Source: Candidatus Limnocylindria bacterium (GTDB lineage: Bacteria; Chloroflexota; Limnocylindria; P2-11E). From it: a stretch of DNA of 45,547 nucleotides. The stretch covers positions 1 to 45,547 of the forward strand of contig DATDEH010000017.1 of assembly GCA_036523395.1 (NCBI GenBank), given 5' to 3'. The notes under the pieces are model-generated. The model had not been told where the DNA came from, did no database searches, and saw nothing but the letters and a program-made list of their open reading frames with translations. Made by a program: the position numbers and the translations under genes. Below, one piece after another: positions 1,253 through 20,995 of the stretch (position 1 is its first letter; each line of letters starts with the position of its first letter).

Positions 1253-4200
1253 ATGGGGAGCGGCGCACTCGCGACCTTCCATGAGCCCACCCGCGACTGG
1301 TTCGAGAGCTCGTTCGCGGCGCCAACGCGCGCGCAGGAGCTCGCATGGCCGGCGATCGCGTCGGGTCAGAGCACGCTCGTGCTCGCGCCGACCGGGTCCG
1401 GGAAGACGCTCGCGGCGTTCCTCTACGCGATCGATCAGCTCCTGTACGCGGAGCCGGACGGCTGCCGCGTCGTGTACGTCTCGCCGCTGAAAGCGCTCGC
1501 CATCGATGTCGAGCGCAACCTGCGCGGGCCGCTCGTCGGCATCCGCCACGTCGCCGAGGGCATGGGCACGCCGCTCCGCGAGCCCAGCGTGGCGACGCGG
1601 ACCGGGGACACCCCGGCGCGGGACCGCGCGCGCTTCGCGAAGACGCCCGCGGACATCTTCATCACCACGCCGGAGTCCCTGTACCTCGTGCTCTCGAGCT
1701 CAGCGCGCGAGAGCCTGCGGAATGTTCGGACCGTGATCGTCGACGAGATCCACGCGATGGTCGCGACCAAACGCGGCGCGCACCTCGCGCTCTCGCTGGA
1801 GCGGCTCGAGGAGCTCGCCGGCCGTCCGTTGCAGCGCATCGGCCTCTCGGCCACGCAGCGGCCGCTCGATGAGGTCGCGCGTTTCCTCGGTGGCTTCAAC
1901 GCCGATGGCCAGCGCCCCGTGAAGATCGTCGACGCGGGTCACACCAAACAGCTCGACCTGCGCGTCGAGGTCCCGGTCGACGACATGTCGAAGCTGGGTA
2001 CTGAGACGCTCGAGATCCGCAGTGGCCCCGCATCGCGCGCCGACGCGCGGTCGAGCATCTGGCCGGCGATCTATCCGCGGCTTCTCGAGCTCATCCGCGA
2101 GCACCGCTCGACGCTCATCTTCGTCAACAGCCGGCGCCTCGCGGAGCGCATCGCGAACGCCGTGAACGAGCTCGCCGGAGAAGAGCTGGTCCACGCGCAT
2201 CACGGCTCGGTCGCGCGCGAGCAGCGCCTCCGGATCGAGGACGATCTCAAGGCGGGCCGGCTGCGCGCGCTCGTCGCAACGTCGTCGCTCGAGCTCGGCA
2301 TCGACATGGGCGCGATCGATCTGGTCATCCAGGTCGAGTCGCCGCCGTCGGTCGCGAGCGGCATGCAGCGCATCGGGCGCGCCGGCCATCAGATCGACAC
2401 GCCGAGCAAGGGCGTGATCATGCCGAAGTTCCGCGGCGACCTTCTCGCGTGCGCCGCGCTCACCGAGCGCATGCACGCCGGCGCGGTCGAGCAGTCGCGC
2501 TACCCGCGCAATCCGATCGACGTCCTCGCGCAGCAGATCGTCGCGATGGTCGCGGTCGAGCCGTGGACCGTCGACGACCTCGAGCGCGTCGTGCGGCGGG
2601 CGGCTCCGTTCTCCGATCTCGCGAGGCCGATCCTCGAAGGCGTGCTCGACATGCTCTCGGGCCGCTTTCCGTCGGACGAGTTCGCCGAGCTGCGGCCGCG
2701 CGTGGTCTGGGACCGCGTCGGGAATGCGCTGCGCTCCCGTGAGGGCGCCGGCCGAATCGCGCTGACGAGCGGCGGCACGATCCCGGACCGCGGGCTGTAT
2801 GGAGTGTTCCTCGTGGGCGCGGAGCCGGGAAAGGGACGCGTCGGCGAGCTCGACGAAGAGATGGTGTTCGAGACACGTCAGGGCGAGACCTTCCTCCTCG
2901 GCGCGTCGACCTGGCGGGTCGAGGAGATCACCCACGACCGCGTGCTCGTCTCGCCCGCGCCCGGTGTCCCCGGGAAGATGCCGTTCTGGAAGGGGGAGGC
3001 GGCGGGACGCCCGCTCGAGTTCGGCCGCGCGATCGGCGCGCTCACGCGAACGCTGCGCGCCTCGGATCCTGCCGAGGGAACGCGCCGGCTGATGGAGAAG
3101 CACGACCTCGACGAGCGCGCCGCGCGCAACCTGCTCCAGTACCTCGCCGATCAGTACGCGGCCGCAGGCGCGGTGCCCGACGACCGCACGATCATCATCG
3201 AGCGCTACCTCGACGAGGTCGGCGACTGGCGTGTCTGCGTGCTCACTCCGTTCGGCGGAAAGGTGCACGCGCCATGGGCGATGGCGATCGGCGCGATGGT
3301 CCGCGAGCGCAGCGCTCTCGAGATCGACGTGCTGTGGACGGACGATGGCATCGTCGCGCGATTCCCCGAGGCGGACGCGCCCCCGCCCGCGGACGTCGCG
3401 CTGCCCGATCCCGATCGCGCGCAGGACCTCGTTGTCGCGCGCCTCTCGGAGACGCCGCTGTTCGCGGCGCGCTTCCGCGAGGCCGCGGGTCGCGCGCTGC
3501 TGTTGCCGCGCCGCTTCCCGGGCAGCCGCTCGCCGCTGTGGCACACACGGCGTCGCGCATCCGAGCTCATGCAGGTCGCGTCCCAGTTCAGCTCGTTCCC
3601 GATCATCCTCGAGGCCTATCGCGAGTGCCTGCAGGACGTGTTCGACATGCCCGCGCTCATCGAGGTGCTGCGCGGCATCCGCAGCCGCGACATCCGCGTC
3701 GTCACCGTCGACTCGAAGACGCCGTCGCCCTTCGCGTCCTCCCTGCTCTTCACGTACGTCGGCAACTTCATCTACGAGGGAGATTCGCCGCTCGCGGAGC
3801 GACGGGCGCAGGCGCTGACCGTCGATCCGACGCAGCTGCGCGCGCTCCTCGGCGAGGCCGAGCTTCGCGAGCTGCTCGATGCCGAGGCGCTCGCCGAGCT
3901 CGAGCTCGATCTGCAGCACCTCGCGCCGGAACGCGCCGCGCGACACGCCGACGGCGTTCACGATCTGCTTCTCCGCGTCGGCGATCTCACGCGCGACGAG
4001 TTGGCGGCACGCGTGAGCGACCCGTCAGCGCTCGATGACTGGCTTGCCGCGCTCGAGCGGGATCGCCGGACGATCTCGCTGCTCATCGGCGGCGAGACGC
4101 GGCACATCGCGTCGGAAGACGCGGCGAAGTATCGAGATGCCCTCGGTGCCGTCGTGCCGCCGGGCCTGCCCGATGCGTTCCTCAGCAGCAGCGAGCGGCC

Positions 4201-5740: not shown

Positions 5741-6635
5741 AGGCGACACGATCCACCGCGTCGCGAATGTGCTGAGACGCGCGCTCGCGGGCCGGATCGT
5801 GACGGGCTTCGAGATCGTCGCGCCGCGGATGAGCTCAGACGGCGCGCGCTTCCAGGTCGTCGGCAGCGTCGTCCGCTCGGTCGAATCGAACGGCAAGCAC
5901 CTGCTCATCACGTTCGCGCGGGGCGAGGATGACGTGGTGCTTCACACGCATATGAAGATGACCGGCATGTGGCACGTGTACCGGACCGGTGAACGGTGGT
6001 GGTCGCCGCGCCATGATGCGCGCGTGATCATCACCACCGACGAGTTCGTCGCGCCATGTTTCGCGCCACCCGTCGTCGAGCTCATGACGACGAAGGAGAT
6101 CGCGTTCCATGCCGTCCTGCCGGAGCTCGGGCCGGACATCATCCGAGATGAGTTCGACGAAGACGAGGCGATCCGGCGGCTGCGCGCGAGCCCCCCCGAG
6201 CGCGACATCGCGACCGCGCTCCTCGATCAGCGGACGATCTCCGGCATCGGCAACGTCTTCAAGTGCGAGGCGCTGTTCCTCGAGCGGGTCTCACCCTGGG
6301 CGCTCGTCGCCGATCTCGACGATGCGACGCTCCAGCGGCTCGTCACGCAGGCGCGGAAGCTGATGCGCCTCAATCGCGACGGGGGCGAGCGTCGCACACG
6401 TTTCGCGCTCAACCCCGCGGAGGGGATGTGGGTCGACGAGCGCACCGGTCTCCCGTGCCATGTCTGTGGAACGCCGGTCGCGTGGGGCTACCACCCGAGT
6501 GAATTCCGGAAGAGCTGGTATTGCCCGCGGTGCCAGAACGTGCAGTGGGCACCGACGACGGCGGAAGAGATCGGGCGGCTGGCAACGATGACGGCGGCCC
6601 GGATGTCGCCACCCGGGCCGCCGGCCAGTCGCTAG
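5733..6635 (+). CDS. nei: Fpg/Nei-family DNA glycosylase (Nei2-type endonuclease VIII)
   Basis: This bifunctional glycosylase/AP lyase removes oxidised bases. The mature N-terminus would be PEGDTIH: Pro2 is the Schiff-base nucleophile and Glu3 the general acid, which makes the ATG at 5733 certain. The N-terminal beta-sandwich is followed by the H2TH region (DQRTISGIGNVFKCEAL). A C-terminal zinc finger has Cys242, Cys245, Cys264 and Cys267. PEGDTI and the CxxC spacing are closer to actinobacterial Nei2 than to Fpg (PELPEV). At 300 residues it has an extra C-terminal tail of about 25 residues. It overlaps the lhr stop by 8 nt. Confidence 0.94.
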   Translation: MPEGDTIHRVANVLRRALAGRIVTGFEIVAPRMSSDGARFQVVGSVVRSVESNGKHLLITFARGEDDVVLHTHMKMTGMWHVYRTGERWWSPRHDARVIITTDEFVAPCFAPPVVELMTTKEIAFHAVLPELGPDIIRDEFDEDEAIRRLRASPPERDIATALLDQRTISGIGNVFKCEALFLERVSPWALVADLDDATLQRLVTQARKLMRLNRDGGERRTRFALNPAEGMWVDERTGLPCHVCGTPVAWGYHPSEFRKSWYCPRCQNVQWAPTTAEEIGRLATMTAARMSPPGPPASR

Positions 6636-7553
6636 AGGATGCCCCGGTCCGCGAACGCTGCGTGGACCTTGTTCGCCGCCTGATTGCCGTAGAGGCGCTG
6701 CGCGGTGTTGACGGTGCGAGTGGCGAGATCGGTCATCGTGGTGCCGGGGAAGTCGAACTGCGCCTCGAGGATGACGGTGTCGGCCTTCACGTTGCCGAGC
6801 GCGTTCCGGATGTCCCAGAGGGCGCGTGACCAGATCCGTCCGTCGTGGTGGACCTCACCGTTGAGGTCGATGGGGTAGTGCAGATCGTTGTCGACGCGTC
6901 GGAGGCAGTGCGGAGAGGTGGACCGGTAGCCCTCGCTGATCGCGCCCGCCTCTTCCGAGGCGAACGAGAAGTTCTGCGAGAAGTGGACCGCGTGGCCGTA
7001 CTCGTGAAGGATCACCTCGGCGTCCTCCGCGTCGTCGACGCCGCCTTTGCCGAACCGAAGCTCGTCCTTTGTGCGTCGTCGCGAACGAGCTGTCGAGTCC
7101 CCACTGGTTGATCCGCACGCGCTGTGGCTCTTTATTGACCGCGCGGAAGGTCGAGCCGAAGCCGAGGCTCTGGATGTACTTCTGCGCCTCGGTGATCCAG
7201 TAATACGCCATGACCTGCTCGCACTCGTCGTCGTGGCGGTTGTAGATGAAGGAATTCGTCGTCGAGTACGCGGGGTTCCCGGTCTCGCTGACGACCACCG
7301 CCCAATCGCCCGACAGGAATCCGCTCCCATCGAGGTTGGTGAGCGTCCGCACGACGTAGGCCGGCTGGAGCGCGGCGTAGTCCTCGTCGTTCTGATCCCT
7401 CGGCGACTGGTCCTGAAGCTGTGCCACGGGGTTCGGGAAGAACACCCGGCCGCTTCCGGTACTCGTGCCCGGGCCGGGCTTCGTTCCATACGCGTCGCCG
7501 CCGGACAGGACGAGAAGCGCGATGACCGCGAAGAGCGCGAGCAGCTGTCACAT
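6632..7553 (-). pseudogene. secreted M36 (fungalysin)-like zinc metalloprotease, disrupted
   Basis: Reading the minus strand, a strong ribosome site (GGGGAGGG, 5 nt spacing) precedes ATG 7553, but codon 2 is TGA. Read through, the frame encodes a good signal peptide (QLLALFAVIALLVLSGG) and about 150 residues of protease prodomain-like sequence. Near 7071-7085 the frame shifts. The second frame continues with TKDELRFGKGGVDDAEDAEV and the zinc motif HEYGH, then AISEG with the likely third ligand Glu. From memory of the family, about 35 residues normally following (GFGDY... to PHCLRR) are missing near 6925. The C-terminus is otherwise well conserved to RGIL. The TGA is one C-to-T transition from CGA (Arg). 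The 3' end overlaps nei by 4 nt, tail to tail. Assembly error could explain one lesion but hardly all three. Confidence 0.8.
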
Positions 7554-10621: not shown

Positions 10622-10627
10622 TACCGT
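10622..10627 (+). promoter_or_regulatory. putative leaderless -10 hexamer (TACCGT) for the M50 gene
   Basis: TACCGT lies 10 nt upstream of ATG 10638. If it is the -10 element, an upstream GTG at 10626 would fall inside it and could not be the start. Confidence 0.4.
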
Positions 10628-10637
10628 GCGCGGCGGG

Positions 10638-12767
10638 ATGGAAGGTATCTGGGCGGTGCTGCGGGAGCGGCTCGACTACGCGTCGTTCGTGCCGCGGCTC
10701 GTCCCCGACATCGAGCGCGCTGAGCTCCGCCGGCGCGACGGCAGCACGTACTACGTGCTGAAGAACCCACGTGGCGAACGCGGCGCGGGTCTGTACGTGC
10801 GGCTCGAGCCGGAGGATCTACGCCTCGTCGATCTCATGGACGGCCAGCGGTCGGTTCAGGACATCCTGGTCGTGCATCTCGAGCAGCAAGGCACCTTCGC
10901 CCTCGACCGCCTGGCTCGAGTGACCGCGGTGCTCGGCGCGAACGGATTCTTCGGCGAAGAGCGCGCGCCCGTCTACGAGAAGCTGGCTGCGCGACGGGCG
11001 ATGCGCGATCCGCTGACGCGCGCGTCGATGCTCCTGCGCAAATTGATCATGTGGGACATCGCGCGGTGGAATAACGCGGACCGCGCGGTGGATGCGATCT
11101 ACCGGTTCGGCGGACGCCTCGCGTTCACGCGGATCGGCGGGACGTTGCTGGTGCTTCTCGCGCTGGCGGGGATCGTCGTCTGGATCCGAGAGCTGGGCAC
11201 CGGACGTCACGGGCTCGCGACGGTGAATGGCAACTACACGCTGGGGATCCTCGCCTTGACTCTCCTGCAGGTCGTCTCGATCTCCGTCCACGAGGCCGGA
11301 CACGCGCTGGCGATCCGACATTACGGCCGTCGGGTCCGCCGCCTTGGTCTGATGATCTACTACCTCTTCCCGTGCGCGTACGTCGACGCGACCGACATGG
11401 CGATGTCTTCGCGCGGACAGCGGATCGTCGTCTCCCTCGCGGGTCCCATCGGCGGCGCGACCGTCGGTGCGATCTGCGCGTTCATCGCGGCGTTCGAGGG
11501 CGGCATCGTCGGAAGCGTCGCGTTCCAGGGGGCCAGCCTCTTCACTTTTCAACTGGTGCTCAACCTCCTCCCGATCCTCGAGCTCGATGGATACAACGTG
11601 CTCGTGGATCTGCTGGACGCTCCATTCCTCCGTCAACGCTCGATGGCGTTCGCGCGGACGGCGATCGTTCGGAAGCTGCGACGTCGCGAGCGCTGGTCAC
11701 CCGGGGAGGTCGGTCTCGGTCTATTCGGGGCCATAGCGATCGTCACGTCTGTCCTCATCCTCGTCTTCTCGCTCACCCTGTGGCAGTCGCGGGTCGCCAC
11801 CGCGGCGAAGGAGCTGATCGCCTACGGACCGGTCGGCGTGCTCGGCCTCGCCCTGCTCGTCGTTGTCTTCGTCGGCCCTCTGCTGGTGGCCCTCGTGGCG
11901 CGGCTGGTCGGCGCGGTCCGTACCTTCGCGCGCCTACGCGGCGCGCGCGCGCGTCAGGCGCGGCTCGGGACCGTCCAGGAACGTGCTGCGGTGCTGGCGC
12001 GCGTGCGCTTCTTCGCCACCCTCTCCCGGCCAGCGCTCCTCGCCATCGCCTCTCACCTTGAGGAGCAGCCGGTGGAGGTCGGCGCGACCGTCGTGGTGGC
12101 CGACGAGGTGGGCGACCGGTTCTACCTCGTCCGCTCCGGACGGCTTCAGGCCATCGGACGCGACGGAGAGGTCCTGGGCACGATCCTCGCCGGGGAGGGC
12201 TTCGGCGAGATGGCGCTGCTGGATCGCAAGCCGCGCGGCGCGACGGTCCGCGCGCTGGAGCCGTGCGAGCTCTGGTCCCTGGACCGCGGGCACTTCGAAC
12301 GCTGGGTGCGCGACCGTTACGAGGTCGCCGCCCGCATCCGCGCGTCAGCCGAGGAGCGCGCCGCGCTGGCCTCGCTGCCGTTCTTCCGAGGCCTCGACGC
12401 ACTGGAGCTCGACCGGATCGCGGCGCGGCTCGTCACCCGCCGGGTGCCGGCCGGCCAGACCGTCTTCTCGGAGGGAGATCCAGGGGACCGTTACTACGTC
12501 GTCCGCGACGGCCAGGCGGAGGTGTCGATCGCCGGCGACGTCGTCCGGAGCCTGGGCCGGGGGGATTCGTTCGGGGAGCTGGCCCTTCTCTACGGGCATC
12601 CGCGGACCGCCACGGTGACCGCCCGGACGGATCTGGTGCTGGCCGGGCTCGGCCGGGAGGACTTCCTACGCCTCGTCCGGGGCTCCCGGGAAAAAATAGG
12701 CGAATTCCGCGCGCGAACGGCGCATTATGTCGGCGCCGGGCTGGGCTCGGCGGCGCGAGGAGCGTGA
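10638..12767 (+). CDS. M50 membrane metalloprotease fused to two cyclic-nucleotide-binding domains
   Basis: The protein has 709 residues from ATG 10638; a GTG at 10626 would add four. Residues about 5-100 form a small domain recalling the PqqD-type winged helix found at the front of putative peptide zinc metalloproteases. Then come membrane helices with the site-2-protease zinc motif HEAGH (His218, Glu219, His222) and the third ligand in ELDGYN (Asp317). Two further helices lie near residues 370-420. The C-terminal half holds two Crp-like cNMP-binding beta-rolls (about 455-560 and 575-690), each with the phosphate-cassette-like pattern GEGFGEMALLDRKPRGATV or GDSFGELALLYGHPRTATV. Both keep the Glu and Arg that contact the cyclic phosphate in CAP. 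An intramembrane protease gated by a nucleotide is the natural inference. The next small gene begins 21 nt downstream. Confidence 0.88.
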   Translation: MEGIWAVLRERLDYASFVPRLVPDIERAELRRRDGSTYYVLKNPRGERGAGLYVRLEPEDLRLVDLMDGQRSVQDILVVHLEQQGTFALDRLARVTAVLGANGFFGEERAPVYEKLAARRAMRDPLTRASMLLRKLIMWDIARWNNADRAVDAIYRFGGRLAFTRIGGTLLVLLALAGIVVWIRELGTGRHGLATVNGNYTLGILALTLLQVVSISVHEAGHALAIRHYGRRVRRLGLMIYYLFPCAYVDATDMAMSSRGQRIVVSLAGPIGGATVGAICAFIAAFEGGIVGSVAFQGASLFTFQLVLNLLPILELDGYNVLVDLLDAPFLRQRSMAFARTAIVRKLRRRERWSPGEVGLGLFGAIAIVTSVLILVFSLTLWQSRVATAAKELIAYGPVGVLGLALLVVVFVGPLLVALVARLVGAVRTFARLRGARARQARLGTVQERAAVLARVRFFATLSRPALLAIASHLEEQPVEVGATVVVADEVGDRFYLVRSGRLQAIGRDGEVLGTILAGEGFGEMALLDRKPRGATVRALEPCELWSLDRGHFERWVRDRYEVAARIRASAEERAALASLPFFRGLDALELDRIAARLVTRRVPAGQTVFSEGDPGDRYYVVRDGQAEVSIAGDVVRSLGRGDSFGELALLYGHPRTATVTARTDLVLAGLGREDFLRLVRGSREKIGEFRARTAHYVGAGLGSAARGA

Positions 12768-12788
12768 GGAAGCGGGGAGTGTGACAGG

Positions 12789-13004
12789 TTGGACTGCTGG
12801 ACATGCGAGCGGACTGCCTTGGGAGCGTGTCGCTTTTGCGGCCGCGGCACCTGCCGCGAGCACGCGAAGACGCACCCGTTCCTCATCGATGTGTTCCGCG
12901 GCAACAAGCACCAGACGCTCCGTGCGCTCGTCGTCGAAGACGCCCTGCACTGTGGCGTCTGTCGGCCGCGCGGCGATCCGGTCGATCTGCCTGAGCTTGA
13001 GTAG
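12789..13004 (+). CDS. small Cys/His-rich zinc-finger protein
   Basis: This 71-residue protein starts at TTG 12789, 21 nt after the M50 gene; no ATG or GTG is available in frame before the first Cys pair. Cysteines at 3, 6, 14, 17 and 22, His25 and His29, then Cys55 and Cys58, form a pattern like a B-box or treble-clef finger binding one or two zinc ions. The conserved-looking middle (HPFLIDVFRGNKHQTLRAL) has no match I know. Position and spacing put it in the same transcript as the protease. Its job is unknown; an adaptor or regulator of the protease is one guess. Confidence 0.6.
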   Translation: MDCWTCERTALGACRFCGRGTCREHAKTHPFLIDVFRGNKHQTLRALVVEDALHCGVCRPRGDPVDLPELE

Positions 13005-13068
13005 TAGAGGGGGGTAGGGAAATAGCCGAATGTCATCAGGATTACAGAGGACGCGTCGTACCGGTGGA

Positions 13069-13082
13069 CGAAGCGCGCTTCG
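13069..13082. promoter_or_regulatory. 14-bp perfect palindrome upstream of the repeat protein gene
   Basis: CGAAGCGCGCTTCG lies 46 nt upstream of ATG 13128, in the leader region of the repeat gene. It could be an operator for a dimeric regulator or an mRNA hairpin. I see no clear -35/-10 pair around it. Confidence 0.3.
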
Positions 13083-13127
13083 GTCAGGACCAATCTGCCG
13101 GCAGCACCAAAACGCAGGAGGATTGAC

Positions 13128-14231
13128 ATGTCGAAGGATGCACTCGCAAAAGTCGTCCAGCGCGCAATCAGCGACGCCGCCTTCCGGCGCCAGCTGAACT
13201 CGGACCCCACCGGCGCGCTTCGCGGTTTCGATCTCAGCACCGATGAGCTGTCTGCGCTCCGCACCGGCGATGCGGGCCGTCTCTCCACCTTGGGCATCGA
13301 CCAGCGCATGAGCAAGGCGTTCGCGATCGGAGGCGGGCTCGCTTCCACGCGCATGTCCCAGAGTGATCTGACGCCGGGCGGTGGTCCCTCGATGGTCGAC
13401 GACGCCTCGGGCGCGTCTGCCAAGACGGTCATCCCCGCAGACCCGACACGGCCTGGTGGCTCCGCCGATCTCGATGGTGGGATCAGCGGTACGAGCACGG
13501 TTCGCGCGGGCGACGACTACAAGTTCGCCGGCCGAGTGGCCCCGGAAGGTGGCAGCTCAGTCCGGACCGGCGACGACTGGAAGTTCACCGACCGCGTGGC
13601 CGCGGACACTGGCAACACAGTCCGGACCGGCGACGACTGGAAGTTCGCGGACCGCGCTTCACAGGGCGCCGTCGCACCGGTAGAGGGTTCGCCTGAGGCC
13701 ACCGCGCTTGAGAACAAGGCCAGCGGTGGTATGGCGAACTACCCAGCGCACGACGGACTCGCTGGCCCATCAGGTGCTAGCTCGGTCCGCGCCGGCGACG
13801 ACTGGGCTCGCAACAGCGCAGGGATCGCGGACTCCGGTCGCATCGGCTCTGCGCGTCTCGACGACGCCAGCGGCGCGGCCGACAAAGCGAGCGTGATCCA
13901 CGACGACCCCAACGGTTTCCTCGCAGCGAACGCCGACGCGGGCGGCTCGGTCGTCAGGGCGAACGTGATCCACGACGACCCGAATGGCTTCCTCGCGGCG
14001 AACGCCGACGCGACAGGCGGAGCGGACATGCCGACGACTGCGTTCATCGACGAATCAGAGAGCTATCTGACCAAGGTCGGCTACGACGCGACCGCGGATT
14101 CGGCCAGCGGTGGCGCGACCGCGATCCACGACGATCCCGATGGCTTCCTCGCCGCGAACCAGGACGCGAGTGGCGCTGACAGCGCAACCCCGACCACGGA
14201 CGCCGAGGGCGGACCGCACATCACTCCATAG
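13128..14231 (+). CDS. repeat protein with Os1348/NHLP-like leader
   Basis: The 367-residue acidic protein contains no cysteine and has a strong ribosome site (AGGAGGA at 13116-13122). Residues 1-68 match what I know of the Os1348-type NHLP leader clan: KVVQRAISDAAFRRQL, a DPTGAL segment, FDLSTDELSALR and a closing IDQRMSKAF. The rest is repetitive. Repeat A, VR(A/T)GDD(Y/W)KFxxR, begins at residues 125, 145 and 165 with a strict 20-residue period, and a decayed copy lies at 220. Repeat B, IHDDP(N/D)GFLAAN(A/Q)DA, begins at 257, 281 and 333. The DDASGA segments at 91 and 245 suggest a larger duplication. No membrane helix is present. It may be a multi-core peptide precursor or a secreted repeat protein; no classic modifying enzyme is adjacent. 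Confidence 0.85.
   Translation: MSKDALAKVVQRAISDAAFRRQLNSDPTGALRGFDLSTDELSALRTGDAGRLSTLGIDQRMSKAFAIGGGLASTRMSQSDLTPGGGPSMVDDASGASAKTVIPADPTRPGGSADLDGGISGTSTVRAGDDYKFAGRVAPEGGSSVRTGDDWKFTDRVAADTGNTVRTGDDWKFADRASQGAVAPVEGSPEATALENKASGGMANYPAHDGLAGPSGASSVRAGDDWARNSAGIADSGRIGSARLDDASGAADKASVIHDDPNGFLAANADAGGSVVRANVIHDDPNGFLAANADATGGADMPTTAFIDESESYLTKVGYDATADSASGGATAIHDDPDGFLAANQDASGADSATPTTDAEGGPHITP
13558..13646 (+). repeat. two exact 29-nt direct repeats, 60 nt apart, inside the repeat gene
   Basis: The 29-nt unit at 13558-13586 recurs without change at 13618-13646 and encodes VRTGDDWKF. A diverged copy precedes it at about 13498. The exact match at the DNA level, including third positions, points to recent tandem duplication within the gene. 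Confidence 0.85.
13896..14168 (+). repeat. three copies of a 45-nt coding repeat (IHDDPxGFLAANxDA)
   Basis: Copies lie at 13896-13940, 13968-14012 and 14124-14168. At protein level the first two are identical and the third has two substitutions. At DNA level they differ at several third positions, so they are older than the 29-nt repeats upstream, and selection seems to act on the peptide. Confidence 0.8.
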
Positions 14232-14257
14232 GAACGATCCACGCGGGTGGCATGGGG

Positions 14258-14285
14258 AACGAGCGGCTCGAAAGAGCCGCTCGTT
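14258..14285. terminator. bidirectional hairpin terminator
   Basis: A perfect 12-bp stem (AACGAGCGGCTC, 14258-14269) with a GAAA tetraloop pairs with 14274-14285. It lies between two convergent genes, and both strands end in AACGAG/CTCGTT followed by T-richer sequence. It would terminate the repeat gene and the Crp/Fnr gene. Confidence 0.85.
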
Positions 14286-14289
14286 TCGT

Positions 14290-14964
14290 CTAGTAGCGGA
14301 TCTCTCTTTTCAGCAGCGCCGGATCCACGATCTCTACCTGCCCGCGGCCGAGCTTCACCCCGCCGCGGCGCTCGAGATCCACGAGCACGCGGTTCACCGC
14401 GACGCGCGTCGCGCCGACGAACGAGGCAAGGTCCTCCTGGGTCAGCAAGATGACGTTCGGCGCGCCGAGCAGCTCGTTCTGATCGAGCAGGAGCTTCGCG
14501 ACGCGCCCGGGCAGATCCAGGAACACGAGATCCTCGATGTGGCCGGTGCTGCGACGGATGCGCGTCGCGAGCAGTGCGAGGAGCTGCCGCATCGCGTCGG
14601 GACTGCCGCGCAGCACGTCCATGAAGTCGCGATTCGCGAGGGCGAACGTGGTCGTCTCCGTGATCGCGGTGACGGTGGCGGAACGCGGCCCCTCGTCGAA
14701 GAGCGAGATCTCGCCAAAGACATCACCGCCGCGGTGCAGCGCGATCACGACCTCCTGCCCACCCTCTTCGGGCACGGAGACCTTCACGGTGCCGGACGCG
14801 ATGAGATACACGTGGCCCGCGGGATCGTCGCGGTGGAAGATGACCTCGTTGCGCTGGAAGTGCTTCGAGCGCATCCGCGCCGCGAGCTCGAGACGCTCGC
14901 GCTGTCCAAGCGGCGCGAAGACCGGCGAGTGCGCGAGGACGTCCGCGATCCCCGTCGCGTCCAC
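14290..14964 (-). CDS. Crp/Fnr-family transcriptional regulator
   Basis: The 224-residue protein has an N-terminal cNMP-binding beta-roll (about residues 10-125) with GDVFGEISLFDEGPRSATV, which keeps the Glu and Arg of the phosphate cassette. A dimerisation helix and a C-terminal winged helix follow, with recognition segment LASFVGATRVAVNRVL (about 171-186). No cysteine cluster for an Fnr-type iron-sulfur centre is present, so a nucleotide or other small molecule is the likely effector. GTG start 14964 is 4 nt after the LLM oxidoreductase stop, so the two are co-transcribed. Its product could regulate the neighbouring protease locus, but no binding site is established. Confidence 0.9.
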   Translation of the reverse strand: MDATGIADVLAHSPVFAPLGQRERLELAARMRSKHFQRNEVIFHRDDPAGHVYLIASGTVKVSVPEEGGQEVVIALHRGGDVFGEISLFDEGPRSATVTAITETTTFALANRDFMDVLRGSPDAMRQLLALLATRIRRSTGHIEDLVFLDLPGRVAKLLLDQNELLGAPNVILLTQEDLASFVGATRVAVNRVLVDLERRGGVKLGRGQVEIVDPALLKREIRY

Positions 14965-14968
14965 GGGA

Positions 14969-15904
14969 CTATGCGGCGACCCCGACGAGCTTCTCGAGAC
15001 GCGGTCGGACCTCGTTCGCGAGCCGTTCCATGCTCTCCGTGTCGTAGGGATAGGCGAAGCCGACGATGTAGCCGCGGATCCCGACGTCCCAGTAACGCTT
15101 GAGGTGCGTCGCGACCTCGTCGTTGTTCCCGATGAACGCGTTGGGGCGGTTCATGCCGTGATGGTGCTTCGCGATCTCGGAAAGAACGGCCTCGCCCTCA
15201 GCTTTCGTGTCGCGGACCACGAGCCAGCTGCCGCCATACGGCTCGACCTGCGAGGGATCGCGACCGGCGTCGGCGCAGTGCTGGCGCAGGATCTCGAGCT
15301 TGCGCGCCATCGTCTCCGGCGGACCGAAGCCGTGCCACATGTCCGCGTAGCGCGCCGTGGTGCGCAGCGTCTTCTGCTCGCCCCCGCCGCCGATCATGAT
15401 CGGAAGGCGCTTCTGCACGGGTCGCGTGTTCAGCACCGCGTTCCTGAGCGTGTAGTACCTACCCTTGTAGGTCACGCGCTCGCCCTCGAGGAGGGCTCGG
15501 ATGACCTTCGCCCCCTCGGCGAAGCGGCGCGAGCGCTCGCCCGGCGTCCCGAGATCGATCCCGTATGCCTTGTGCTCGGTCTGATTCCATGCGGCGCCGA
15601 TGCCGCAGATCGCGCGGCCGTTCGAGACCTGATCCAGCGTCGCGGAGATGTTCGCGATCACGGCCGGATGGCGGTAGGTGATACCCGACACCATCGCGCC
15701 GAGGCGCACGCGCTGCGTGACCGCCGCGAAGGCGGCCAGGATCGTCCAGGCTTCGAAGTTCGGCCGCTCCTCCTCACCCGAGAGCGCGTAGAAGTGGTCC
15801 CAGGTCCATACGGAGTCGATGCCGATGCGGTCGGCGAGCTGCGCGGCATCTCGCATCGCGGGCCAGGTCGTGTTCTGCGGCCAGAGTTGGAAGCCGAGTT
15901 TCAT
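14969..15904 (-). CDS. LLM-class F420-dependent oxidoreductase (TIGR03560-like)
   Basis: This 311-residue luciferase-like TIM barrel starts MKLGFQLWPQ. Family features are the WTWDHFYAL segment after strand 2, RVRLGAMVSGITYRHPAVIA, the GIGAAWNQTEHKAYGI segment, and PIMIGGGGEQKTLRTTARYA, where flavin or F420 phosphate would bind. The overall pattern resembles the Rv1855c-like group, but substrate cannot be told. Its ATG is 32 bp from the divergent aminotransferase start, and the -10-like hexamers of the two genes overlap. Confidence 0.88.
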   Translation of the reverse strand: MKLGFQLWPQNTTWPAMRDAAQLADRIGIDSVWTWDHFYALSGEEERPNFEAWTILAAFAAVTQRVRLGAMVSGITYRHPAVIANISATLDQVSNGRAICGIGAAWNQTEHKAYGIDLGTPGERSRRFAEGAKVIRALLEGERVTYKGRYYTLRNAVLNTRPVQKRLPIMIGGGGEQKTLRTTARYADMWHGFGPPETMARKLEILRQHCADAGRDPSQVEPYGGSWLVVRDTKAEGEAVLSEIAKHHHGMNRPNAFIGNNDEVATHLKRYWDVGIRGYIVGFAYPYDTESMERLANEVRPRLEKLVGVAA

Positions 15905-17620: not shown

Positions 17621-18634
17621 CTAGGCCGTGAGGGTCGGCGCGACATCCCTCAGAGCGGGGATTATTTCCCGGCCGTAGGTCGCGAGGATCTCCTCCTCGT
17701 CGCCGCTCATGAGGTAGATGTTGAACTGCTTCACGCCGACGGCGGCGAGCTTTCGGAGCTTCGCGATGTGCGCTTTTGTATCGCCGATGACACAGAAGCG
17801 TTCCACCGACTCATCGTCGACGAACGCCGCGTTCGATGACCCCGATTCAGCGTGGTGCTGGTAGTCGTATCCAGGCCGGCCGCGAACGTATGCGGTCAGT
17901 TCCGCCGGTAGTCCCTGCTCGCCGTATCGCTTCACAAGATCGACGACGTGATTGCTCACGAGGGCGGGGAACCAACGGACCGCGTCGAGCGCGCGTTTTC
18001 GGTCACCGAGGTGCGCCGGCGCTGCGGCCATGACGGCGACCGAGTTCGGGTCGCGACCCGCGTCGCGCGCGCCTTGTTGCAGGAGGCCCACACACCAGCC
18101 CACGAGGCTCGGGTCGGCGAGCTGGATGATCGCGCCGTCGGCGACTCGCCCCGTGAGCTCGAGCGCTTTGGGTCCGTAGCCGGCGATCCACACCGGCAGC
18201 CGGTAGTTCTCTACCCAGTCGAGACGCAGCTTCGTTCCCTCGTACGTGACCTCACGGCCCTCGCAGAGGTCGCGGATCACCTTGGTCGCCTCCTCGAGGC
18301 TCGCCAGCGTCGTCGGGGCCTTTCCCAGCACGCGCCGCGCGGAGTCGCCGCGGCCGATGCCGAGATCCATGCGGCCTTTGGAGAGGAGCTGGAGGACGGC
18401 GAGGGTGCTCGCGGTGACCGATGGCTCCCGCGTCGCGGGGTTCGTGACGCACGTCCCGAGCCGCATGCGCTCGGTGTTCTGCGCCATCAGCGTGAGGAGC
18501 ACGTAGGGCTCTTTCCAGAGCACGTGGCTGTCGAAAAGCCAGCCGTAGGTGAAGCCGCTTTGCTCCGCGAGCCGCGCGAGGCTGACCGCGCGCTCGAGCG
18601 TGACGTCCGGCTTCAGGGTGAACCCGAACTCCAT
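17621..18634 (-). CDS. LLM-class F420-dependent oxidoreductase (CPS_4043-like)
   Basis: The 337-residue luciferase-like barrel starts MEFGFTLKPDVTLERAV. Segments FTYGWLFDSHVLWKEPY, RMRLGTCVTNPATREPSV, GRMDLGIGRGDSARRVLG and LPVWIAGYGPKALELTGRVA match my memory of the TIGR03842 group. Members of that group are often found with pyrimidine or hydantoin degradation genes and class III aminotransferases. The nearby aminotransferase is consistent with this, but no hydantoinase is in the window. A TAGACT hexamer sits 10 nt upstream of the ATG, inside the end of the preceding small gene. Confidence 0.9.
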   Translation of the reverse strand: MEFGFTLKPDVTLERAVSLARLAEQSGFTYGWLFDSHVLWKEPYVLLTLMAQNTERMRLGTCVTNPATREPSVTASTLAVLQLLSKGRMDLGIGRGDSARRVLGKAPTTLASLEEATKVIRDLCEGREVTYEGTKLRLDWVENYRLPVWIAGYGPKALELTGRVADGAIIQLADPSLVGWCVGLLQQGARDAGRDPNSVAVMAAAPAHLGDRKRALDAVRWFPALVSNHVVDLVKRYGEQGLPAELTAYVRGRPGYDYQHHAESGSSNAAFVDDESVERFCVIGDTKAHIAKLRKLAAVGVKQFNIYLMSGDEEEILATYGREIIPALRDVAPTLTA

Positions 18635-19583: not shown

Positions 19584-20001
19584 ACCACTCGCTCGCGCGC
19601 TCGATCTTCATGCGCACGAACGGCCGTCCCGCCAGCGACAGCGTTTCGTACTGCGCATACTTCGCGAGGAGCTGAGCCGCAGCCTTGTCGCGTTCCTCGC
19701 CGTTCTCGAGGATCGTCGCCACGCCCTCGAGCATGACCCACGCGAGTCGCGACCAGTCCTCGTCGTAGCGGTCGATCACCACGGCGACGCGGCCGTTCGT
19801 CTCGATGTTCCGCACGCGGCGCAGCGCGTGCCAGTCATCGTCGCGCTTGGGCTTGCGATCGAGTGGTGTGTACAGGACGTCGTCGCTCCAGACGAACACG
19901 ATCGGCACGACGTGCGGCCGCGCGTATTGATCCGAGGTGGCGAGATGCCCCACGCGAGCGGTCGAAAGGAGGTCGCGCGCGCCGGCGGAGAGACTAGGCA
20001 C
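19561..20001 (-). CDS. PPOX-class F420-dependent enzyme (Rv0121-like)
   Basis: This 146-residue split-barrel flavin/F420-binding protein shows VGHLATSDQYARPHVVPIVF (strand 1-2 hairpin), TPLDRKPKR, RRVRNIETNGRVAVVIDRYD and LAWVMLEGVATIL. This layout matches the TIGR03668 group in my memory. GTG 20001 overlaps the stop of the FGD-like gene by 8 nt, so the two are translationally coupled. In related enzymes the deazaflavin F420 binds in the cleft of a dimer. Substrate is unknown. Confidence 0.88.
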   Translation of the reverse strand: MPSLSAGARDLLSTARVGHLATSDQYARPHVVPIVFVWSDDVLYTPLDRKPKRDDDWHALRRVRNIETNGRVAVVIDRYDEDWSRLAWVMLEGVATILENGEERDKAAAQLLAKYAQYETLSLAGRPFVRMKIERASEWSSETPSS

Positions 20002-20986
20002 GGAGGCGGGGAAGGATCTCGCGCGCGTAGAGGCGCATCGCCCGCTCCTGATCCTTACCGGGGAAGTGGAAGACCAGGTGCGTGAAGCCCCACTCCACGT
20101 AGCGGCGGATCTTCTCGACGTGCTCGTCGGGATCGGTCGAAACGATGAAGCGCGTGTGCGCCTTGTCTGCCGCGGCCTCGGCGCGGCGCTCCATCTCGCG
20201 GGGATCCTCGACCCCCGCCTTGTCCTCGGGTGGTAACGCGAGCGCGGCCCACTCGCGTGTGTCGGCCATGGCGCGGCTGCGGTCCGTATCGAACGAGACC
20301 TTCATCTCGATGGTGCGCTCGATCTTCGCCGGGTCGCGTCCCGCCTCGCGCGCTCCGGTCTCGACCGCGGGCAGCAGCGTCTCGCGATAGAGCTCGTCGC
20401 CTTTCCCACTGGTGCAGATGAAGCCGTCCGCCTCCTTGCCCGCGTAGGTCGCGGTCTGCGGACCGGCGGCGGCGATGTACAGCTTCACGCCATCCTTCGG
20501 CTTGTCGAAGATCTTCGCCGCGCGCGTCTTGAAGTACTTGCCGTCGAACGTAACGTAGTCCTCCGACCACAGCAGCTTCATGAGCTTCACCGCCTCACGC
20601 AGGCGTCGGAAGCGCTCCGCGGGCTCCGGCCACTCGGTCGCGAGGACCGGCGTCTCGTTCATCGACTCACCGGATCCGACGCCGAGGAAGAAGCGATCCG
20701 GGAACAGCAGCGCGATCGTGGCCGCGGCCTGCGCCACGATGGCCGGGTGGTAGCGGAACGTCGGCGTCACCACGCTGGTGCCCATGCGCACCCGCGACGT
20801 CTTCGCGCCGATCGCGCCGAGCCAGGCCCACGAGAAGGGCGCGTGGCCACCGGTATCGCGCCACGGGTGGAAGTGGTCGCTCACGACGACGCTGTCGAAG
20901 CCGAGCTCCTCCGCGAGCACGCCGTACCGTAGGAGATCGGCGGGCGCGAATTGCTCCGCGGACGCTTTCCAGCCGAGTGTCAACAT
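19994..20986 (-). CDS. F420-dependent glucose-6-phosphate dehydrogenase-like oxidoreductase
   Basis: The 330-residue LLM barrel starts MLTLGWKASAEQF at ATG 20986. A GTG at 20995 would add three residues but abuts the TAGGAT hexamer. Residues His38 and Trp42 (SDHFHPWRD) and Glu107 (GVGSGE) line up with His40, Trp44 and Glu109 of M. tuberculosis Fgd1, the catalytic set, with a constant offset of two. Membership of the TIGR03557 F420-G6P family is therefore well supported. Whether glucose-6-phosphate or another sugar or alcohol is oxidised cannot be told. It faces cofE, which makes its cofactor's tail, across about 25 bp. Confidence 0.9.
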   Translation of the reverse strand: MLTLGWKASAEQFAPADLLRYGVLAEELGFDSVVVSDHFHPWRDTGGHAPFSWAWLGAIGAKTSRVRMGTSVVTPTFRYHPAIVAQAAATIALLFPDRFFLGVGSGESMNETPVLATEWPEPAERFRRLREAVKLMKLLWSEDYVTFDGKYFKTRAAKIFDKPKDGVKLYIAAAGPQTATYAGKEADGFICTSGKGDELYRETLLPAVETGAREAGRDPAKIERTIEMKVSFDTDRSRAMADTREWAALALPPEDKAGVEDPREMERRAEAAADKAHTRFIVSTDPDEHVEKIRRYVEWGFTHLVFHFPGKDQERAMRLYAREILPRLRA

Positions 20987-20995
20987 GGCCCGCAC

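Follow-up and report, generated by a model that had tools for sequence, protein, structure and literature searches.

What does a membrane metalloprotease with cyclic-nucleotide-binding (CNB) domains do beside a protein that joins a leader domain to a tail of short repeats? The question is raised by a locus at positions 10638-14964, regulator gene included, of a 45,547-nt stretch of DNA from a soil Chloroflexota bacterium (the window). A sequence-only reading had recognized three genes here, with coordinates and lengths that proved correct: an M50 protease with a PqqD-like front domain, a tiny zinc-finger protein and a 367-residue protein, indeed free of cysteine, that combines an Os1348/NHLP-like N-terminus with two families of short repeats. 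Our analysis shows that these genes, together with a convergent Crp-type regulator gene, make up a four-gene unit that distant soil bacteria also carry and that is widespread and apparently undescribed as a system in the literature searched, where we found no paper on such a combination of components. We propose a model, to which we give an even chance, in which the M50 protein is a cyclic-nucleotide-gated leader peptidase that is guided by a RiPP recognition element (RRE; RiPP, ribosomally synthesized and post-translationally modified peptide), cuts near the leader-tail junction and frees the tail.

The arrangement is strongly conserved. The expectation that the three genes would occur together in relatives is borne out at 13 of the 13 class I family loci whose contig includes the M50 gene: the order M50, zinc protein, leader protein is kept at all of them and the flanking genes differ. 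The M50 relatives are 57-87% identical, and the Crp-type regulator, at 55-91% identity, lies in or beside the unit at most family loci whose contig extends there. The unit is also found in other Chloroflexota families (e.g. loci L108, L113, L117, L118 and L120), and in the genomes labelled f16 its genes are present but far apart or on separate contigs. In a set of 301 Chloroflexota genomes, with the M50 called at E <1e-30, the zinc protein is encoded in 36 of the 37 genomes with the M50 and in 16 of the 264 without it (Fisher p = 7e-33), and Os1348 in 34 of 37 against 62 of 264 (p = 4e-16), p-values that ignore shared ancestry and hence overstate independence. Class II M50 proteins are domain-swapped (CNB-CNB-RRE-M50) and sit beside a short Os1348 gene of their own at nine loci, tail-to-tail with it and with a product of 81-97 aa. 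Most class II loci share a common neighbourhood of what we take, from the starts of the proteins, to be ftsH and thpR.

Is the protease equipped for the proposed task? Its assignment to the M50/site-2 proteases rests on a Pfam M50 match of 35.7 bits (cut-off 27.2) and on the motifs HEAGH and NLLPILELDG. HEAGH is intact in every class I family member examined, the active-site motifs are intact across class I M50s, and at least one nucleotide cassette is recognised in each family member. In the window's protein both CNB domains carry FGE...PRxATV cassettes with the ligand-cassette Glu and Arg in place. In the AlphaFold2 model, computed with 33 homologues (mean pLDDT 86), residues 26-101 adopt a beta-beta-beta-alpha-alpha-alpha topology, with most blocks at pLDDT 89-93 and one at 82. 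Foldseek placed the M50 enzyme SpoIVFB first (probability 0.99, E 0.024) and returned two RRE structures among the first ten matches, leader-bound TbiB1 (5v1v; probability 0.91, E 1.2, TM 0.65 on the target) and TglHI (probability 0.72, E 1.5). Although these model-based matches have weak E-values, the RRE proteins that they point to are specific. In addition, a sequence match (E 3.7e-5) links the N-terminus of a Micromonosporaceae M50 homologue to the RRE protein ApyI. As modelled, the M50 N-terminus thus has the RRE/PqqD fold that had been predicted for it.

The partner protein begins with a recognizable leader. Residues 5-62 match NF038399, the Os1348 family of the NHLP clan, at 60.9 bits (curated cut-off 40), within the segment 1-68 that had been read as Os1348/NHLP-like; the classical NHLP leader model TIGR03793 gives 13.2 bits against a cut-off of 50.9. 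The protein also shows similarity (E 4.7e-5) to PDB 6lk7, an 85-aa entry titled 'nitrile hydratase, alpha chain' that is presumably the crystal structure of Os1348, and a weak similarity to chains of the borosin precursor SonA. The tetrapeptide RMSK marks the junction in 19 of 19 class I leader proteins compared, and class II Os1348 proteins carry R-[MVI]-S-[KR] there. A GG pair follows soon after RMSK in only about half of the class I leaders.

Beyond the junction lies a modular and probably disordered tail. The two anticipated repeat families are real, family A (consensus VRxGDDWKFxDR) with four copies, of which the last is degenerate, and family B (consensus VIHDDPNGFLAANADA) with three, and single-copy modules are present besides. 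The tail holds 18 repeated 6-mers and an exact repeat of 16 residues; 2000 composition-preserving shuffles reached maxima of 3 and 7, which rules out a chance origin. Two modules, VAPVEGSPEA and YSGDDxAGP, are each shared by six loci that span genera, while shuffled tails never exceed two. Module order differs between close relatives, the tails are hypervariable, and tandem Os1348 paralogues with different tails are found at L042 (three), L043 (two), L046 (two) and L115 (several). At L115 (639-13659) and L114, on contig 20 of genome G101, five tandem Os1348-leader proteins of 317-1463 aa as called lie beside an M50; the single G101 tail scanned with Pfam contains OCRE-type WxDP repeats. A ratio of nonsynonymous to synonymous substitution rates (dN/dS) of about 0.3-0.4 indicates that the tail is constrained coding sequence. 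Modules picked post hoc gave 0.03-0.17 against 0.30-0.49 in the spacers, a circular choice, and with within-protein repeats only the contrast nearly vanishes; we therefore rejected the idea of stronger selection on the repeats.

The tiny zinc-finger protein is a conserved double-site zinc protein of 71 aa and a genuine third member of the unit, sharing 73-93% identity with its counterparts in 12 relatives of the family and 46-57% with those of other families. It has a weak Pfam C5HCH match (E 2.4e-4), and its AlphaFold model, of moderate quality (pLDDT 72), yielded only weak PHD/C5HCH-like and cross-brace zinc-finger matches in Foldseek. At two further loci (L217, 6758-10133; L220, 5564-8804) the family lies in a conserved cluster together with genes for a stand-alone CNB protein, a MinD/ParA-like ATPase, a protein of winged-helix type and an intramembrane metalloprotease of the PrsW family; Pfam checks covered all genes at L217 and PrsW at L220, and no leader gene was detected in either cluster. 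As the zinc protein is thus paired with two unrelated families of membrane metalloproteases in nucleotide-sensing neighbourhoods, it is likely to be an adaptor or regulator.

How far does the unit extend? A zinc-protein scan of named genomes retrieved it from other Chloroflexota, from uncultured Actinomycetota metagenome-assembled genomes (MAGs) and from cultured members of the Micromonosporaceae, among them Phytohabitans flavus and Asanoa hainanensis. Its presence in cultured Actinoplanes, Asanoa and Phytohabitans makes it directly testable. The Micromonosporaceae leader proteins span about 220-620 aa, those read end in DxDxDG arrays, and the M50s carry a long C-terminal extension. At 12 Actinomycetota MAG loci a basic peptide of 35-53 aa (MAEKKVTPK...) occupies the Os1348 slot; it has a [TASP]-[RK]-V-[ST]-[KRL] junction of the RVSK/RVTK type at residue 18-23, followed by a basic, often repetitive stretch (SATR, RDSK) and then usually by a Crp gene. 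Among distant loci, a radical-SAM methyltransferase adjoins the unit at L171 and an MNIO enzyme at L119, so that it sometimes joins real RiPP enzymes. L119 (3189-8001), where an Os1348-type open reading frame lies between the M50-CNB gene and the MNIO gene, is itself a candidate true RiPP cluster.

What mechanism could unite these parts? In the model that we favour, the 367-aa precursor would dock through its Os1348/NHLP leader on the RRE of the membrane M50, which would cut near the R-[LMVI]-[ST]-K junction. The two C-terminal CNB domains and the zinc-protein partner may regulate the protease, with nucleotide binding as the gate, and as the class III cyclase domain has 19 matches in the genome, a cyclic-nucleotide signal is plausible. 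The freed tail of reshuffled modules would most likely act outside the cytoplasm, and the adjacent Crp-type protein might make expression respond to the same type of signal.

A number of observations weigh against this model. All Foldseek E-values for the M50 model exceed 0.001. Unlike the usual M50 substrates, the tail is hydrophilic and shows no obvious membrane segment, and within-protein repeats, a non-circular choice, show a dN/dS of 0.27-0.31 against 0.33-0.38 in the rest of the tail, a weak difference. RLSK, a form of R-x-S-K, is also found in Os1348 proteins remote from any M50, so that the motif may be a feature of the leader fold and is weaker as a specific cut site. No export gene adjoins the unit, and no ABC match in the genome, whose assembly is about 95% complete so that absences are not absolute, covers the N-terminal C39 part of the NHLM exporter model (TIGR03796 positions 1-134). 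Micromonosporaceae M50s have no recognisable nucleotide cassettes, and nucleotide gating is therefore not universal; the tiny Actinomycetota peptides have no Os1348 domain, which would require the RRE to recognise another kind of leader at those loci.

Might the Os1348 domain act on the protease rather than be cut by it? It could be a regulatory subunit or anti-protease that sits on the RRE, with other membrane proteins as the real substrates, in a case of regulated intramembrane proteolysis, and the tail as a sensor or spacer. The almost tailless Os1348 proteins that adjoin class II M50s fit this idea, as do the clusters of zinc protein, CNB protein, MinD-like ATPase, winged-helix protein and PrsW in which no leader gene was detected, and which are in keeping with general nucleotide-controlled membrane proteolysis. 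However, the extreme diversity of the tails, the tandem paralogues with differing tails and the repeat peptides of Actinomycetota look like products, and we judge a regulatory role unlikely. Equally improbable, in our estimation, is a tail that serves as a structural or binding protein, secreted or at the cell surface, for which leader and M50 would provide a new route of export or anchoring in place of a peptide-signal or RiPP pathway. The Micromonosporaceae DxDxDG arrays resemble calcium-binding loops of extracellular proteins, and the extension of the M50 in that family and the G101 tails of up to 1463 aa, OCRE-like in the one scanned, point the same way; yet the unit has no conserved translocation channel or anchor, the tails of the window's family are without DxDxDG arrays, and the Actinomycetota peptides measure just 35-53 aa. 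That the tails are slippage-expanded low-complexity sequence with no sequence-specific role, the leader alone being important, might be read from a combined Ala/Gly/Ser/Thr/Asp content of 62% and from the pure short repeats of other Chloroflexota tails (TVDTG x8, NSAEAL x9), but is very unlikely, as it is already weakened by the modules shared across genera and also opposed by repeats that differ partly by synonymous changes and by the dN/dS of the tail.

The leader-peptidase model has a precedent in MpaP, described (PMC10036551) as an intramembrane peptidase that relies on an RRE and strips daptides of their leader. By analogy, this is the role that we suggest for the M50 of the window. MpaP/DapP (NF041824) likewise has an RRE before the M50 core and matches M50 residues 49-411 at 137 bits. 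This score is far under the daptide_HExxH equivalog cut-off of 300, the window's protein has two CNB domains in addition, its presumed substrate has, in place of a short core, a long and hydrophilic tail of repeats, and no oxidative decarboxylase, aminotransferase or methyltransferase was recognised in the unit. With a score this low and no daptide partner gene, DUF-RRE included, in the unit or conserved beside it, we rejected membership of the daptide family. The YydH/LiaK epipeptide metalloproteases (NF058609) have in common the M50 core (63 bits, cut-off 225) and a peptide-maturation setting, but here there is no adjacent radical-SAM epimerase and the precursor is different; membership was again rejected, with no SPASM radical-SAM enzyme in the genome, the epimerase family itself not having been searched. 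The Os1348 cluster of Pseudomonas sp. Os17 (PMC7726476) has the same leader-domain family and a metallopeptidase-like gene, whereas the prototype Os1348 is an 85-aa protein that lacks a repeat tail and is partnered by a gluzincin-like HExxH protein in place of an M50, and the cluster includes a SagB-type dehydrogenase. The NHLP/NHLM systems (Haft 2010, PMC2887384) share the NHLP-clan leader; in contrast, no NHLM ABC exporter reaches the cut-off in the genome of the window, and the low TIGR03793 score also separates the two. We regard the unit as a variant of RRE-dependent intramembrane leader proteolysis, outside the daptide and epipeptide families, in which nucleotide gating and modular tails would be new.

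Is the product a RiPP? The absence of modifying enzymes and of a transporter next to the unit, already remarked upon in the sequence-only reading, holds, and the genome contains no YcaO, SPASM radical-SAM or TIGR03975 enzyme, which leaves the RiPP label unproven. The peptide-maturation proposal of that reading is supported in part, by the NHLP-clan leader, the RRE fold and the co-occurrence in relatives. Export by a double-glycine C39 ABC transporter was rejected, since no genomic ABC match extends over the C39 part and GG is found in only about half of the class I leaders. Modification by an MNIO enzyme was likewise rejected: the genome has a single MNIO gene, located on a different contig from the unit, and a search of 60 other genomes revealed none. 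That MNIO gene (L215, 5316-7426; G000 contig 44) stands beside genes for a 229-aa protein, a Lys-rich 124-aa protein and a tyrosinase-like protein; the start of the 229-aa protein resembles an NHLP helix pair, and this may be a separate RiPP cluster, its MNIO being absent in relatives.

What are the implications of such a unit? We tentatively suggest, as a possibility, a widespread and apparently undescribed class of second-messenger-gated proteolysis in Chloroflexota and Actinomycetota, in which RRE-M50-CNB proteases and a dedicated small zinc adaptor would free hypervariable repeat tails from two unrelated leader types, the structured Os1348 domain and the short MAEKKVTPK-type leader, at a similar R-V/M-[ST]-K junction; with a zinc adaptor that would also serve a PrsW-type protease, this would amount to a general toolkit for nucleotide-controlled intramembrane proteolysis. 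If our model is correct, second-messenger signalling is joined to leader-guided intramembrane proteolysis, part of the Os1348 leader family gains a likely processing enzyme, intramembrane metalloproteases acquire a named partner in a conserved zinc protein, and a store of bacterial peptides built from repeats comes into view.

Features of the locus, in window coordinates.
Feature	Position	Strand	Basis or remark
RRE-M50-CNB-CNB intramembrane metalloprotease, 709 aa	10638..12767	+	Pfam M50 35.7 bits, cNMP_binding 141 bits
RRE/PqqD-like domain of M50, residues 26-101	10713..10940	+	AlphaFold2 model and Foldseek
HEAGH zinc/catalytic motif, residues 218-222	11289..11303	+	nearly invariant in 33 homologues
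NLLPILELDG second M50 motif, residues 309-318	11562..11591	+	N309, P312, D317, G318 invariant
Phosphate-binding cassette, first CNB domain, FGEMALLDRKPRGATV	12201..12248	+	
Phosphate-binding cassette, second CNB domain, FGELALLYGHPRTATV	12570..12617	+	
Zinc protein, 71 aa, TTG start	12789..13004	+	CxxC / CRFCGRxxCxxH / CGVC
Os1348/NHLP leader and modular repeat tail, 367 aa	13128..14231	+	NF038399 60.9 bits
Leader domain, residues 1-63	13128..13316	+	NF038399
RMSK at leader-tail junction	13305..13316	+	proposed recognition/cut region
Repeat A copy 1	13500..13538	+	
Repeat A copy 2	13560..13598	+	
Repeat A copy 3	13620..13658	+	
Module VAPVEGSPEATA	13671..13706	+	common to six loci, two genera; position read from sequence
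Module MANYPAHDGLAGPSG	13731..13775	+	position read from sequence
Repeat A copy 4 (degenerate)	13785..13823	+	
Repeat B copy 1	13893..13940	+	
Repeat B copy 2	13965..14012	+	4 synonymous and 0 nonsynonymous codon changes relative to copy 1
Module AFIDESESYLTKVGYD	14040..14087	+	position read from sequence
Repeat B copy 3	14121..14168	+	
Hairpin between convergent genes, likely two-way terminator	14258..14285	.	symmetric; AACGAGCGGCTC-GAAA-GAGCCGCTCGTT
Crp/FNR-type regulator, convergent, conserved fourth member	14290..14964	-	Pfam cNMP_binding and HTH_Crp_2

The leader-tail gene is preceded by a strong AGGAGG ribosome site. For the M50 gene an alternative GTG start exists at 10626, but MEGIW-type starts are conserved in several relatives. 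Elsewhere in the window, three luciferase-like (F420-type) oxidoreductase genes are clustered at 14969-15904, 17621-18634 and 19994-20995, and some further genomes have their relatives close to the unit. At 6632-7489 a gene resembling those of zinc metallopeptidases (HEYGH) is seemingly split over two frames, possibly by a frameshift or because the gene is broken, and a tandem repeat with a 42-bp period lies at 3453-3538 within a long helicase-like gene.

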